A DNA stretch of 64,000 nt from Streptomyces flavochromogenes (GTDB taxonomy: Bacteria; Actinomycetota; Actinomycetes; Streptomycetales; Streptomycetaceae). Below are positions 48,653 to 57,721 of the stretch, piece after piece; position 1 is the first letter of the stretch, and each line of letters opens with the position of its first letter. The translations under genes and the position numbers were made by a program. Under the pieces are notes generated by a model that was given only the letters and a program-made list of their open reading frames with translations, searched no databases and was not told the origin of the DNA. The stretch lies in NCBI RefSeq assembly GCF_000717595.1, contig NZ_JNZO01000002.1, positions 310,001-374,000 of the forward strand, written 5' to 3'.

Positions 48653-49417
48653 TCAGGGCTTCTCGAACACCATGACGAAGTCGGCCATCTCCCGCACGCG
48701 CGGAACGTCCGGGTCCGGGAGCGCGAGAAGCCGCTCCTGTGCCTCGGCCACCAGGCGGGTGGCGTCGCCCGTGACCGACCAGGCGCCGGTGAAGAGGCCG
48801 CCCGACAGGGAGCGGGCCATCGCGCGGGGCGACACCCGGAAGGCCGTGGGGCGTTCGGAGGCCGTGCCCCGGTAGACGAGCCCGCGGGCCTCGGCGATCG
48901 GTGCGAGGGTCCACGGACCGTCCTGACGGGTCCGGAGCGGGTCGAGCCGGTCCTCCAGCTCGCCCACCACGGCCCCGATGTCGTCCGTGGGGCGGGTGCC
49001 CCCGGCCGGGATCACCAGATAGCGGCCTCCCGGGCGCAGGACCCGGGCGACCTCGTCGAAGACCCTCCCGTGGTCGGGCCCCGTGTGCAGCAGCCAGGTG
49101 GACACCGCCTGGCTCACCGAGGAGGTCCGTACCGGAAGCCGGCAGGCGTCCGCCACCGTCACCCGCGGGCCGAGCCGCTCCAGGGCCCGGGCGAGCATCC
49201 CGGTCGACAGGTCGAGCCCGTACACCACGTGTCCGCGTGCGGTCAGTTCGGCCGCCACGATGCCCGTGCCCACGCCGATGTCGAGCACCGGGCGGTCGGG
49301 GTCGAGCAGGGGCGCGAGCTGCTCGGCGAAGCCGGCGGCCCGGGCCGTGCCGCCGCGCGAGGCGTCGTACCCGGGGGCGATCGCGTCGAACTCCGCCGTA
49401 CCGGAGGGCGAAGTCAT
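48653..49417 (-). CDS. Class I SAM-dependent methyltransferase
   Basis: A 254-residue methyltransferase with SAM motif I VLDIGVGTG, motif II-like GLDLSTGML and ARVLRPGGRYLVI. It follows the P450 gene by 41 bp on the same strand and is probably cotranscribed with it. In a P450-RiPP setting it could N- or O-methylate the product, but small-molecule methyltransferases of this type give no substrate clue. Cytoplasmic. Confidence 0.85.
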   Translation of the reverse strand: MTSPSGTAEFDAIAPGYDASRGGTARAAGFAEQLAPLLDPDRPVLDIGVGTGIVAAELTARGHVVYGLDLSTGMLARALERLGPRVTVADACRLPVRTSSVSQAVSTWLLHTGPDHGRVFDEVARVLRPGGRYLVIPAGGTRPTDDIGAVVGELEDRLDPLRTRQDGPWTLAPIAEARGLVYRGTASERPTAFRVSPRAMARSLSGGLFTGAWSVTGDATRLVAEAQERLLALPDPDVPRVREMADFVMVFEKP

Positions 49418-50685: not shown

Positions 50686-50765
50686 CTTCCGTAACTCCCC
50701 GATGATTTGTGAAAGATCTCTGGCAGGTAGTCATACCAGCCACCCCAGTTGCGTGGTAGCGTCAC
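50682..50765 (-). CDS. Small aromatic-rich peptide coupled to the P450 (candidate RiPP precursor or leader)
   Basis: A 27-residue frame from GTG at 50765 to a TGA that overlaps the P450 ATG (ATGA). The product starts VTLPR and contains NWGGWYDYLPEIFHKS before a Ser/Gly-rich end (SGSYGR). Two Trp, three Tyr, one Phe and one His in 27 residues are unusual. The frame stays open further upstream but that part is Arg/Ser-rich and unlikely to be coding; the ribosome site for the GTG is weak, so the start is uncertain. Overlap with the P450, as at the other P450-peptide pair, suggests a substrate-enzyme unit; a leader peptide for coupling is the alternative. Confidence 0.45.
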   Translation of the reverse strand: MTLPRNWGGWYDYLPEIFHKSSGSYGR

Positions 50766-50850
50766 CGGCGCTCGGCTCGGATTGATGTTCGGAGAAGGAC
50801 CGGCGAACTGCCGGTGACAAGATCGGCGAGGCGCTCCACCCACCGGTGAC
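50761..50850. promoter_or_regulatory. Repeated GTCACCGG elements in the divergent P450 control region
   Basis: GTCACCGGC at 50761-50769 is inverted at 50810-50818, and CCGGTGAC recurs at 50843-50850. Three copies of an 8-mer in the 240-bp space between divergent P450 genes could be regulator sites; one overlaps the proposed GTG of the small peptide. No convincing promoter pair was found. Confidence 0.4.
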
Positions 50851-50923
50851 CGGCGCCTCGTGCAGCTCGACTCGGTAGCAGCCAAGGCCTCAACCAGGCC
50901 CGATGCGCAGGGGGAGACGTTTC

Positions 50924-52114
50924 GTGGAGCAAGCGGCAGCCGTGGACCCGATTCTGGATCTGGCCCGTCCGTCGATCCTGCGGAACCCGTACCCGTCGTA
51001 CGCCCGGATGCGTGAGACCTCCCCCGTCCTGTGGCACGAACTGCTCGGTTCCTGGGTCCTGACCCGGCACGCCGACTGCCTCGCCGTGCTCACCGACAGC
51101 AACCGCTTCGCCTCCGACTGGCGGCGCGCCGGGGAGGAGATCCCCGCCCCGCTGCTCAGTGTGCAGACCCTCGACCCTCCGGAGCACACCGCCATCAGGC
51201 ACCTGCTGCTCGACGGTTTCCGGGCACAGGACCGCCAGGCGCTCAACGACGGCCTGGAGGGGCAGATCGCCGATCTGCTCGCGGAGTTGGCCCGGCGCCC
51301 CTCCTTCGATCTCGTCGGGGAGCTCGCCGAGCCGGTGGCGCTCCGCTTCGTGACCGCCTTTCTGGGCGTCGAGGCTCCCGGGCTCGACTGGTTCGTGCCC
51401 ATGTCCCGTACCGTCGTGGACGGCATGGACGCCGGCCTCTGGCCCGAGAAGCACGAACCGGCCGTCGCGGCCCGCGCCCGGCTCGCGGAGTACGCGGGCG
51501 GGTGGCTCGCGGACCCGCCCAAGGAAGGTCTCATCGCGTACGTCGCCGAACACGCGGCGGACAGCGGCGTGGCAGAAACGGTTCTGCGCAACAGTCTGCG
51601 CGCCGTCCTCCACGCCGGCTACGAATCCGCCTCCCGGCTCCTCGGCAACGCGGCGGCCGGCCTCCTCACCACCCCCGGCGCGCTCGAAGCGTTCCGGGCG
51701 ACCCCGGCCACGGCCGTGGACGAACTCATCCGGTACGACGCACCGGTCCAGGCGGACGCCCGGGTCTGCGTCACCGACACCGAACTGGGTGGCGTCACGA
51801 TGAAGGCGGGTGATCCGGTCACGCTCTTCCTGGGCGCGGCCAATCACGACCCGCTCCGTTTCGCCCACCCCGCAGAGCTGCGACTCGACCGCGCCCCGAA
51901 CCCGCACCTCGGGTTCGGCCGCGGGGCCCATGCCTGTCTGGGCGCGTCCATGGCGATCCGGCTCACCGGATCGGTCCTGGGTGCCCTGGCCAGGGACTAT
52001 CCGCAGGCAAGGGCAGTCGCGGAACCGGAACACCGGCGCAATCTGACCCTCCGCGGTCTCGACCGCTTTGAGGTCACCCTGCGTCCAGACACGGGGGAGG
52101 AGGTACGACCATGA
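50924..52114 (+). CDS. Cytochrome P450 with atypical I-helix, candidate peptide-cross-linking enzyme
   Basis: A 396-residue P450. GTG at 50924 is chosen since AGGGGGAG lies 7 nt upstream; an ATG seven codons earlier is less well placed. The heme loop is FGRGAHACLG (Cys about 338) and ExxR is in DELIRYDAP. The I-helix reads LHAGYESASRLLG: the position of the usual oxygen-activating Thr is Ala/Ser, a feature of some P450s that perform radical coupling rather than hydroxylation. The stop overlaps the ATG of the MKYWH gene, tying the enzyme to that peptide. By analogy to biarylitide P450s it would join the Tyr and His (or Trp) side chains; this is inference from context. Confidence 0.85.
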   Translation: MEQAAAVDPILDLARPSILRNPYPSYARMRETSPVLWHELLGSWVLTRHADCLAVLTDSNRFASDWRRAGEEIPAPLLSVQTLDPPEHTAIRHLLLDGFRAQDRQALNDGLEGQIADLLAELARRPSFDLVGELAEPVALRFVTAFLGVEAPGLDWFVPMSRTVVDGMDAGLWPEKHEPAVAARARLAEYAGGWLADPPKEGLIAYVAEHAADSGVAETVLRNSLRAVLHAGYESASRLLGNAAAGLLTTPGALEAFRATPATAVDELIRYDAPVQADARVCVTDTELGGVTMKAGDPVTLFLGAANHDPLRFAHPAELRLDRAPNPHLGFGRGAHACLGASMAIRLTGSVLGALARDYPQARAVAEPEHRRNLTLRGLDRFEVTLRPDTGEEVRP

Positions 52115-52128
52115 AGTACTGGCACTGA
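52111..52128 (+). CDS. Pentapeptide gene MKYWH, biarylitide-type RiPP precursor
   Basis: An 18-bp gene (ATG AAG TAC TGG CAC TGA) whose ATG overlaps the P450 stop as ATGA. GGGGGAGGAGG ends about 7 nt before the ATG, one of the best ribosome sites in the window, and serves no other gene. The product MKYWH matches the M-x-Y-x-H pattern of biarylitide precursors such as MRYYH, described from Planomonospora, in which a partner P450 joins Tyr3 and His5 and the last three residues become the product. Here the product would be a cyclised Y-W-H tripeptide. A perfect terminator hairpin follows 67 bp later. Trp4 and a gene order with the peptide after the P450 may be variants of the known type. Confidence 0.8.
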   Translation: MKYWH

Positions 52129-52194
52129 AACCAGTGAGCGTGCGGCCCGTCCGGGAGGCGGGCACCACGCCCGTGCACGACAACCGTGCACCTC

Positions 52195-52232
52195 GCCGGA
52201 GCCCGAGCCCGCTGCACGGCTCGGGCTCCGGC
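52195..52232 (+). terminator. Terminator of the P450-pentapeptide unit
   Basis: A perfect 15-bp stem (52195-52209 with 52218-52232) and 8-nt loop, followed by CCTT. It closes the transcription unit soon after the pentapeptide gene, supporting that gene as the last cistron. Confidence 0.75.
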
Positions 52233-54808: not shown

Positions 54809-57370
54809 TCAGAGCGTGTCGCGGCTCTCCCAGCGCTCCCGGAACCACGCCAGCGTCTCGGCGAGCAGCTTGCGGTTGTGGTCCTCCTCCAGCAGCGACA
54901 GGCGGATGTGGGGGCGCAGTTCCAGCTTTCCCTCCGGGATGGCCACCCCCTCCAGTTCGTTGAGTCTCCGGAGCAGCTCGGCACGCAGCGTGCGGTCGGT
55001 GAAGGGCTCGCGTGCGGCGAGGTGCTGGAACACCACCTCCGCCGTGCCGCCGCGTCCGCCACCCGGATAGAGCGTCAGGGGCCAGATGCCGCGGCCCGGC
55101 GCGCCCGCCTCCCCGAGCATGAGATACGCGCTGGTGGTGGTGTGGCCTGACCCGTGGCCGATCCAGCCGCCGAGCTCTTCCCAACCCTTGAAGGTCGCCC
55201 GGACCGCCTCCACCGTCTCGGGGGAGTCGTCCGCGGCGAGCTGACGGAAGAACCGGTCGGCGCGCGTCTGGCCGCCTTGGCCATCCGCGGTGTCCTCGCC
55301 GTCCGTCTGTTCGTCGCCGCCACTGGCGACCAGCAGGGCGAGATCGTCGGCGGTGAGGCGCTGTGCCGGGTCGGCGGCCCCGTTGACCGTGAAGTGGACG
55401 CCGTCGGCGCTCAACCGGGCCCGGACGTCGCCTCCCTCGTCCGGGGACGTCCAGTGGAAGCCGTCGGAGACCTTGCCCTCGGATGTGAGTACCCGGTACG
55501 CGTTCGTCAGTCCCGCTGTGTTGGCCATGTGGCTGCCGACGGCCTGGGCGCCGGAGCCGAGAAACGCGGCCAGGTCGCCGTAGGAGGTCCAGGTGCCGTG
55601 GGGGAGCACCGCAAGCACCTGGTGGGCCAGCTGCCAGTCCCGGCTGCGTTCCGCGCGGCCGACTCCGCGCAGCGGGGCCGGCCAGAGCGTGGTCGCGCGG
55701 TCGGCGATTTCGTCGGCGCGGGCGAGGATCTCCCGCATGCCCCAGCGTTCGGTGGCGGCGATCCGGCGGTTCATCTCCAGGTGGCTTCCCTGGAGCAGGC
55801 CCTGCTTGCGCTCGAAGGGGTGATTGGAGAGCTCCGAGTTGACCGCGGTGAGTGTCAGGTTCCCGAGGGTGTGCCGCAGCCGGGCGTGCAGGTCCTCGGC
55901 GCTGTCCGGGGCGTTCGCGTCCTCGGCCAGCATGCGCATCCACTCGTCGCCGGCCGACTGGGGCAGAACATGCTCGATGGTGAGCTGCGCGGCGGCGAAG
56001 TCCAGCGGCTCGGGATGCTCGTAACTCTCCTCCAGCCGCTGGAGCACCATCTTGCGCTGGTGCCAGCGTCCGTACTGGTAGAACGGCGCCGTCCGGATCT
56101 TGTCGCGCAGTTCCTTGTCGTCGGGCCAGAACCGGTTGTCGGCGGAGAGGAGCCGGTGCAGGCCGTCGGCCACGGGCACGTCGGTCGGGAGCTGTCCGGG
56201 CACGGACTGGAAGACCCTGTTGAGATTGTTCGTCGGCACCCGGCAGATCATCCGGCGGACGAGGAAGCTCTCGATGTACGACATCGCGCGGGCCGCCTCC
56301 GAGGATGCGAGTTCGCCCCGCTCCCGTCGGTCGAGGAGCAGCATCAGAGCGGGGTAGGTGACCTGTGCCTGCCAGGCGTCCAGGCGCCGCAGACGGGCGC
56401 GGACCGCCGTGTCCGGCTCCTCCTGGGGATGGAGCAACCGGCGGAAGAGAGTGCTGTGCCGGTACAACTCCCTGATGTACGCCTCGATCTCGGCCTCGGT
56501 CACCTCGCGGCGCTCGAAGCGGTGCTGCTGTGCCGCGTACAGGTCCTGGCGGCGCACCCGGTCGTCCCCGTCGAGCACCAGCTGAAGCCACATGAGCTGT
56601 TCGAGCTCGTCGTTGCTCAGGCTCTCCTGCAGCGGCAGCCAGTAGGTCTCGTAGACGTGCTCCCCACGCGTGGGCAGCCGCATGAACAGGTAGTTGCGCA
56701 GCAGGTCGGCCTGACTGAGCTTGAGGCCGGTGTTGTTGAGCGACTCGAAGATGCGGTGCACGTTGTCGCCGCGCTCGGCGGTCACCGCCACCAGCGTGAG
56801 CCGGGAGGTGATGGCCTGCTCGATACGGAAGACGTCCTGCGGGGCGGCCGGATCGTCCGCCTCGACGAGCTTGCGGCGGAAGAAGCCGTAGGCCGCGGCG
56901 ACGTTCCCGCCGGCGGTCTGCGTCGCGAGCGGCCCGCGCACGTGTGCGGCGAACTGGGGGCGGTCGGCCTGGGTCGGCAGAAGCCGGAAGTGGTCGCTGC
57001 CGCCCTTGCGCTTGTTGATCAGGTATTCCTCGTCGATGCGCTCGGCCTCGTCCGGCTTGGCATCCGCGATGTGATCGCGGATCGCGGCCAGTGCGAGGGA
57101 GAGTGTGGTCAGCCGCTGCTGACCGTCCACCACGAGCCAGCGCGGAAAGGTCGCCTCGTTCTGAGGGGACGGTGCCAGGACGACGGAACCCAGGAAGTGC
57201 GTGCTCGCCCTGTCCCCCGACTCCAGCAGCTCGGCCTGCTCCAGAACATCACTCCACAGCTGCCCGAGCTGTTTCTCCGTCCAGGAGTACGTCCGCTGGT
57301 AGAGCGGCACTTGGAACTGCTGCGCCCTGCCCTGGACGAGATCGGCGAACAGCGTCTCCTTCGCCTGCAT
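54809..57370 (-). CDS. DUF262/DUF1524 (GmrSD-like) nuclease with an alkyltransferase-like domain
   Basis: An 853-residue protein. Residues 1-330 are DUF262 with the nucleotide-binding DGQQR motif (82-86) and the VPLYQRTYSW start; residues 340-565 hold DUF1524 with the His-Me nuclease motif LTIEHVLPQS (His about 467) and NLTLTAVNSELSN..F..K. About 570-680 is an MGMT/alkyltransferase-like DNA-binding domain (VLPHGTWTSYGDLAAFLG, VGSHMANTAGLTNAYRV, SDGFHW) without the alkyl-acceptor Cys motif. The C-terminal 170 residues are unassigned. GmrS/GmrD proteins cut modified phage DNA; the extra domain could sense modified bases. AAGGGGG precedes the ATG. It stands alone, without other restriction genes. 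Confidence 0.88.
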   Translation of the reverse strand: MQAKETLFADLVQGRAQQFQVPLYQRTYSWTEKQLGQLWSDVLEQAELLESGDRASTHFLGSVVLAPSPQNEATFPRWLVVDGQQRLTTLSLALAAIRDHIADAKPDEAERIDEEYLINKRKGGSDHFRLLPTQADRPQFAAHVRGPLATQTAGGNVAAAYGFFRRKLVEADDPAAPQDVFRIEQAITSRLTLVAVTAERGDNVHRIFESLNNTGLKLSQADLLRNYLFMRLPTRGEHVYETYWLPLQESLSNDELEQLMWLQLVLDGDDRVRRQDLYAAQQHRFERREVTEAEIEAYIRELYRHSTLFRRLLHPQEEPDTAVRARLRRLDAWQAQVTYPALMLLLDRRERGELASSEAARAMSYIESFLVRRMICRVPTNNLNRVFQSVPGQLPTDVPVADGLHRLLSADNRFWPDDKELRDKIRTAPFYQYGRWHQRKMVLQRLEESYEHPEPLDFAAAQLTIEHVLPQSAGDEWMRMLAEDANAPDSAEDLHARLRHTLGNLTLTAVNSELSNHPFERKQGLLQGSHLEMNRRIAATERWGMREILARADEIADRATTLWPAPLRGVGRAERSRDWQLAHQVLAVLPHGTWTSYGDLAAFLGSGAQAVGSHMANTAGLTNAYRVLTSEGKVSDGFHWTSPDEGGDVRARLSADGVHFTVNGAADPAQRLTADDLALLVASGGDEQTDGEDTADGQGGQTRADRFFRQLAADDSPETVEAVRATFKGWEELGGWIGHGSGHTTTSAYLMLGEAGAPGRGIWPLTLYPGGGRGGTAEVVFQHLAAREPFTDRTLRAELLRRLNELEGVAIPEGKLELRPHIRLSLLEEDHNRKLLAETLAWFRERWESRDTL

Positions 57371-57721
57371 CGTGTTCCCCCTTGGCCACCGCTCCGTTGG
57401 TGGGATCGACCCTAAGGCCTCGCACCGACACTCACAGCGGCGTTTCAGCCCTCGTCCGGACGGACGGCACCCGGGCCAGCAGGTCGGCGGTGAGGGCGGG
57501 GGCGGGATCGAGGGGCTCGGTGTCTGGCCGGACCCCACCGGCCTGGCGGAGCGGGTACGGCTCGCCTCCGCCGGCCGCACGCGGGCGGGCGTCGGCAGAG
57601 GGATTCGGCCACGCTATATCCCGCATTGATCGTTTGCCTATCCCCGTCCCTTTTCATCAAGTCCGGGGGGCGCGGAGCCCCTCGACCGACTGCCGGTGAT
57701 CCGGGGGACAGGAGCTGACGC
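57371..57721. other. Intergenic region before the YcaO-like gene
   Basis: 351 bp between divergent genes, with a lower-GC patch at about 57610-57660 that may hold promoters. A 64-codon minus-strand frame (57432-57626, from ATG at 57626, starting MRDIAWPNPSADARP) has a weak ribosome site and no recognised family; I do not count it as a gene with confidence. Confidence 0.35.

Follow-up and report, generated by a model that had tools for sequence, protein, structure and literature searches.

The precursor genes of biarylitides have been called the smallest known genes (PMC13417212). In July 2026 the P450 AchB was reported to cross-link MKYWH between Tyr3 and His5 (Padva et al., 2026, PMC13417212). 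The substrate tested was Nle-KYWH, tryptophan was preferred at position 4, and the bond joins a Tyr3 carbon to the N-tau of His5, with Trp4 not a partner (PMC13417212). Work on AchB in vivo was unsuccessful as reported there. According to sections of the same paper and of PMC8708641, antimicrobial tests of biarylitides showed no activity. The introduction of PMC13417212 raises the possibility that related peptides act on plants. Sections of PMC12951456 describe the biarylitide clusters that preceded myxarylin as being without additional genes, and suggest that the gene for the protease that trims biarylitides may lie at another place in the genome.

Thus, from the AchB results (PMC13417212), both the peptide MKYWH and its likely link are already known. 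A first-pass annotation of the window (the whole 64-kb stretch of Streptomyces DNA analyzed here) had offered Lys2 and Trp4 as a new variant, but MKYWH is named and tested in that paper. It had also offered Trp4 as an alternative cross-link partner; as AchB is published to link Tyr3 to His5 (PMC13417212), we rejected this for the first P450. We consider it probable, from sequence comparisons, that the window contains a biarylitide-type RiPP locus in which MKYWH is cross-linked and a second P450 and a methyltransferase oxidize and methylate the Y-W-H ring.

The BytO-type P450 and its pentapeptide gene

We identified a gene for a BytO-type cytochrome P450 of 396 amino acids (50924..52114, plus strand), a predicted peptide cross-linking enzyme based on its solved relatives, key residues and position in trees. 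As the start of this gene we prefer the GTG at 50924, preceded by GGGGGAG, to the ATG at 50903. Pfam assigns the product to P450 and to nothing finer. Ten solved chains match it at 350 to 267 bits, after which the scores drop to 148 bits, and both RufO (8SPP) and P450Blt (8U2M; identities from PMC12186263) are within these ten. The chains 8SPC, 9EBY and 9M47 score nearly the same as 8SPP, and 22YX, 9JVJ and 9JV0 are also included. The solved relatives are 46-50% identical to the window P450. When aligned, its residues V169, A231, H234, E238 and S239 are the P450Blt set (roles of these positions: PMC12186263, PMC10929621). The motif AGYES is found in this enzyme, versus AGHET in the neighboring CYP107-like P450, to which it is 29% identical. 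The first-pass annotation had suggested a phylogeny with biarylitide P450s. In ours, the enzyme groups with AchB, P450Blt and RufO inside the biarylitide group, separate from ordinary P450s, and is sister to the AchB clade in trees of 41 P450s (support 98/91) and of 59 rows (96/79). By these comparisons the window P450 is of the biarylitide type. The earlier reading of such a P450 with an 18-bp precursor gene of its own agrees with the solved relatives, residues and tree.

The bytA-like precursor gene for MKYWH, ATGAAGTACTGGCACTGA (52111..52128, plus strand), is 18 bp long including the TGA, with codons ATG AAG TAC TGG CAC TGA. Its ATG at 52111 overlaps the P450 TGA (52112-52114) by four bases (ATGA), and its own TGA ends at 52128, just as the first pass had read the overlap. 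The encoded peptide has the features of a biarylitide precursor (five residues of the form MxYxY/H, aromatic at 3 and 5, from 18 bp). Precursor genes of this kind lie within about 500 bp of a BytO-type P450 gene, and here the two overlap by the four bases. In size the MKYWH gene belongs with the smallest genes known. Seven bases ahead of its ATG, in the 3' end of the P450 gene, is a strong ribosome binding site, GGGGGAGGAGG (52093..52103, plus strand). The site was singled out for its strength in the first pass, but the claim there that it serves no other gene goes too far. Copies of GGAGGAGG number nine on the plus strand of the window (the MKYWH site counted) and 13 on the minus strand, and three of the others stand 5-12 bases ahead of mechanical start codons (predicted ORFs of 39, 93 and 156 aa).

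A scan of genome contigs with the P450, sensitive only to close relatives, yielded 20 named loci. All are from Streptomyces, with P450s 80-99% identical to that of the window. In 20 of 20 the 18 bases are kept letter for letter at the P450 3' end; homologues without a conserved short ORF there, named in the first pass as counter-evidence, do not occur in this set. A purine-rich ribosome site is present in 21 of 21 rows (the 20 loci plus the window). All 18 columns of the ORF are invariant across these rows, versus none of the 60 ungapped columns after it. Within the P450, no change is seen at 160 of 395 third codon positions (15 equal-length rows), so the ORF is conserved beyond the P450 background, with the qualification that GC-rich codon choice favors its invariance. 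The pattern ATG-N3-TAY-N3-CAY-TGA has a single match on both strands of the 64 kb and was found in 0 of 100 shuffles. From the single match, the shuffles and the 18 invariant bases in 21 of 21 rows, we conclude that the ORF is not there by chance. It is nearly certain that the P450 and the 18-bp ORF are a biarylitide enzyme and its precursor.

The ATGA overlap with the P450 stop is found in 15 of the 20 loci. The P450 stop is shifted in four others, where the MKYWH ORF and its ribosome site are still present and the ORF begins four bases (L013, L015, L017) or 25 bases (L014) from the start of the stop codon. L020 was excluded from this judgement because its P450 frame is disrupted. In that locus (L020/L034) assembly error or decay has disrupted the frames of both BytO and the methyltransferase and left the MKYWH ORF and the second P450 whole.

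We also drew 392 Streptomyces genomes, including that of the window and some from strains that are also represented among the named loci. A BytO-type P450 is found in 24 of the 392 at E 1e-85. Thirteen of the 24 have the MKYWH-type P450 (at least 91% identity; G224, among them, by a partial match), and the MKYWH ORF is present in 13 of 13. Plasmid records gave five matches at E 1e-60, all below 60% identity, and the draw for family f18 gave none of 35. A P450 of G685 is 38% identical to P0037 (E 8e-75).

Beyond the precursor gene is a perfect 15-bp hairpin with an 8-base loop (52195..52232), likely a bidirectional terminator for the convergent genes on either side. Of the 21 rows, 13 were compared; among these, four of the 15 pairs (3, 5, 11 and 12) are changed on both sides, pair 14 is T-G in three rows, and in two rows pair 1 is broken. 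Hairpins in the other eight rows (L008, L013-L018, L020) are shorter or different. The perfect stem reported in the first pass is present, and its naming as a terminator holds in part. There is no T run, a terminator scan of the window found no terminator and eight rows differ, so we treat termination as presumptive.

Gene order was compared using a pentapeptide search in which positions 3 and 5 could be Tyr, Phe, Trp or His; for family f17 (another actinobacterial family) and a survey of 19 BytO regions, a ribosome-site-like string was also required. The precursor is downstream of the P450 in the window clade, in an MRHAH/MRHVH group (5/5, one with two copies) and in six of nine f17 BytO loci (five at 17-42 bases; MRYWY at 1559). 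It is upstream in five of the 24 Streptomyces BytO genomes and three of the nine f17 loci (at 105-153 bases from where the match begins, and at 1340 in one case), and L050 and L051 are two further cases. One of the 24 (L041/L092) yielded no precursor in this search. The P450-first order is seen with MRHxH, MRYIH, MRYVH, MRYRH, MRYWY and MRYAY precursors. Thus this order, put forward in the first pass as a possible novelty, is common to several clades, and the downstream precursors of the MRHxH group and f17 rule it out as a new feature. The four-base overlap is particular to the Streptomyces group of the window among the loci surveyed.

The MRHxH group (L035, L036, L038, L039, L040) is a separate Streptomyces P450 clade, with MRHAH or MRHVH ORFs 19-103 bases downstream. 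L036/L084 encodes MRHAH twice in tandem, at 77 and 159 bases past the P450 stop. The P450s of this group have Q at 234 and 238 instead of His and Glu, which suggests a different link chemistry; a His-x-His link would be unusual chemistry.

A second P450 and a methyltransferase

Divergent from the BytO gene is a gene for a second cytochrome P450 (49459..50685, minus strand), a predicted tailoring enzyme with a canonical AGHET motif. We call it CYP107-like because of its solved matches, of which the best is 5cje, followed by 7wex and PikC; its predicted function draws on family, motif and linkage. A class I SAM-dependent methyltransferase (48653..49417, minus strand; Pfam Methyltransf_11), also a predicted tailoring enzyme, is encoded 41 bases downstream of it. 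CorZ (9SOT/9SOV) is not among the 27 solved structures that match the methyltransferase at E 0.001, which is meaningful only if the copy searched includes those entries. The 238-bp intergenic region between the divergent P450 genes (50686..50923) is likely a shared promoter/operator and has conserved blocks, with GTAGTCATACCA exact in 18 of 21 rows and AGTTGCGTGGTAGCGTC in 17 of 21.

A complete second P450 is encoded in 19 of the 20 loci. In L018 (positions 252-889) deletion or misassembly has reduced it to the C-terminal half (residues 204-407), which abuts BytO with the intergenic region missing; MKYWH is intact. The methyltransferase is found in 15 of 20 loci, including L020 (in pieces), and is absent from L004, L010, L011 and L012; L018 was not judged. 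The locus is therefore not the minimal unit of P450 and peptide described in the first pass, since the second P450 and usually the methyltransferase are conserved alongside. Lacking among the conserved cassette genes is one for a peptidase. Acetyl xylan esterase, opcA, DoxX and other neighbors are not in all loci and were placed outside the unit. Elsewhere in the window (54809-57580, minus strand) is a GmrSD-type restriction protein that carries an extra alkyltransferase-like DNA-binding domain (Pfam DNA_binding_1).

At E 1e-120 the second P450 is present in 13 of the 392 genomes, exactly those with the MKYWH P450, and in 0 of the 379 others, a threshold just above the P450s about 50% identical to it that are common in Streptomyces. 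The methyltransferase (E 1e-40; 63 of the 392 genomes searched) is found in 10 of the 13 cassette genomes versus 0 of 50 others. Such co-occurrence is weak when taken alone because the 13 genomes are relatives, and a distant NO synthase gene is also enriched among them. Shared ancestry explains part of it. The argument for a cassette consequently rests on loci with changed flanks and on distant pairs.

In three loci, L014, L015 and L017, nothing in the fetched 5-kb flanks beyond this set is orthologous to an ORF of another locus; the one further match, a P450 in L014 at about 30%, is a paralogue. This comparison used mechanical ORFs; the methyltransferase of L015, hidden under a longer frame, was seen in separate searches.

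Distant pairs were sought among the best 120 of 483 homologues of BytO, the best 120 of 274 of the second P450 and 54 of the methyltransferase; pairs on one contig are probable, as judged from equal source and equal contig size. The two P450s are probably paired in Micromonospora sp. NPDC003197 (P0063/P0131, 327,582-base contig), on a 9,269-base contig (P0114/P0142) and on a 5,295-base contig (P0099/P0145), and a BytO and a methyltransferase on a 2,241-base contig (P0068/P0284). These partners are 44-55% identical to the window proteins, and within each pair the two P450s are distinct proteins (29-33% identical to each other). The BytOs P0063, P0099 and P0114 fall in the AchB-side sister clade of the tree, as does P0068 by identity. 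A 36-row tree of second-P450 homologues separates into four clades, which contain the six close Streptomyces rows, P0131, P0142 with P0145, and the common ~50% Streptomyces P450s, respectively. The joins of the four clades are unresolved, so common descent of the second P450 and these distant partners is not established. No copy of the second P450 above 33% identity was found in 19 other BytO regions of 13 kb each. These comprise 10 of 11 other Streptomyces loci, with the RufO-like G013 locus left out, and nine of nine from f17; L078 alone represents the AchB-side clade. An Actinacidiphila methyltransferase is 62% identical to that of the window, and no BytO from this source is among the best 120 of 483 BytO homologues.

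Participation of the second P450 in the same pathway as MKYWH is a reading we find rather likely, although weakened by the half gene of L018 and by a tree that does not resolve orthology of the distant relatives. We favor a role for the methyltransferase where it is present, with slightly less confidence.

Proposed pathway and alternatives

We predict that the P450 and MKYWH are translated from one message, with the ATGA overlap and the strong ribosome site likely coupling and boosting synthesis of the peptide. BytO probably joins a Tyr3 carbon to the N-tau of His5, as AchB does on the same peptide, and by this analogy a Tyr3-His5 link in MKYWH is very probable. Met-Lys would be trimmed by a peptidase, likely encoded elsewhere. 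The second P450 would hydroxylate the cross-linked ring, for which a canonical AGHET is the fitting motif of a hydroxylase, and the methyltransferase would cap it, as BytZ/CorZ do in myxarylin. More tentative, and in our estimate falling a little short of an even chance, is a full two-P450 pathway in which the first enzyme closes the Tyr-His ring, the second oxidizes it (with Trp4 as the exposed target) and the methyltransferase caps it to give a class of tailored tripeptides. The missing later steps could then explain why no activity has been seen for bare biarylitides.

The pathway may instead consist of the P450 and MKYWH only, with the second P450 and methyltransferase retained through shared ancestry. 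The clusters described before myxarylin, without additional genes (PMC12951456), would be precedents, and the 13 cassette genomes have other genes in common too. L018 keeps MKYWH with only half of a second P450, and that enzyme is absent from the 19 more distant BytO regions. However, L014, L015 and L017 differ all around the locus, yet the second P450, methyltransferase, BytO and MKYWH stay together; no drawn genome without the MKYWH P450 has the second P450 at E 1e-120 (0/379); and probable pairs at ~50% identity occur in Micromonospora and on two other contigs. We regard this simpler pathway as unlikely, at roughly one chance in four.

Nitration of Tyr3 by the P450, making the peptide a source of 3-nitrotyrosine as with RufO, is very improbable. 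An NO synthase gene (L093, G000:C2:240646-241704) is on the same contig, outside the window and about 120 kb from the cassette. NO synthase is encoded in 11 of the 13 cassette genomes, at a distance of about 70-625 kb or on a different contig, versus 12 of 50 others. This and the ~50% identity with RufO are compatible with nitration, but D169 and V239 of the RufO type are V and S here, and the RufO clade is separate (100/98 on 41 rows, 100/100 on 59). In G013, which has a RufO-like locus, 130 bases separate the end of the NO synthase match from the P450 match that follows it, whereas the sole match here is far from adjacent, and two of the 13 cassette genomes yielded no NO synthase match. We rejected nitration because neither the residues nor the gene context agree with it.

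Short overlapping ORFs can act on translation, and the MKYWH ORF overlaps the P450 stop; it could therefore be a translational-coupling or regulatory peptide and not a substrate. This is more improbable still, since the coding sense is kept in the loci where the overlap is lost (L013, L014, L015, L017) and AchB takes MKYWH as a substrate when Nle replaces Met (PMC13417212). Cheap as 18-bp ORFs are, one arising by chance where an ordinary hydroxylase P450 gene ends has a negligible probability and is ruled out by its presence in 20 of 20 loci and 0 of 100 shuffles, with the P450 itself placed among biarylitide enzymes.

Returning to the tailored biarylitide that we favor, the cassette, found in 13 of the 392 drawn Streptomyces genomes, would provide a defined three-enzyme set. 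If the second P450 and methyltransferase do tailor the ring, the biarylitides tested so far may be intermediates, and the locus would offer a route to oxidized, methylated cross-linked tripeptides. It also illustrates how generic annotation of two P450s, and none for the precursor, can conceal a pathway.

Comparison with described systems

The two-P450 cassette appears new, as it was not found in the literature searched or in the main text of PMC13417212. That text has no "methyltransferase", "second P450" or "two P450", and its sole "additional P450" refers to training data; Table S1 of that paper may list these loci. AchB of Actinomadura hibisca, which we took to be P0103, acts on the same five-residue precursor as that of the window locus. 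It is 52% identical to the window P450 over 386 columns and lies in the sister clade, but unlike the window enzyme has A169, V231 and T238. Sections of PMC13417212 describe no second P450 or methyltransferase with it.

P450Blt (PDB 8U2M), whose precursor is MRYLH, has all five key residues in common with the window P450 and is 46% identical to it. The five P450s that group with P450Blt have their precursor 138-154 bases upstream, whereas that of the window is downstream, and P450Blt as published does not tolerate the Trp4 (PMC13417212) that the window precursor has. RufO of rufomycin biosynthesis (PDB 8SPP, 9DUJ) is likewise a P450 acting on a pentapeptide encoded in 18 bp. It differs in nitrating this peptide, with NO from the NO synthase RufN, and in residues 169 and 239.

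Trp4 and a precursor downstream of the P450 are combined in the MRYWY type of Stackebrandtia nassauensis (PMC13417212), as they are in the window. The MRYWY locus of the AchB-side clade (L078) differs in its distant precursor (1559 bases downstream), in having Tyr5 in place of His5 and in lacking the four-base overlap. For myxarylin, sections of PMC8708641 and PMC12951456 name only bytA, bytO and bytZ, with the precursor MNYLH and no second P450; like the window locus, it is a biarylitide system with a co-encoded SAM methyltransferase.
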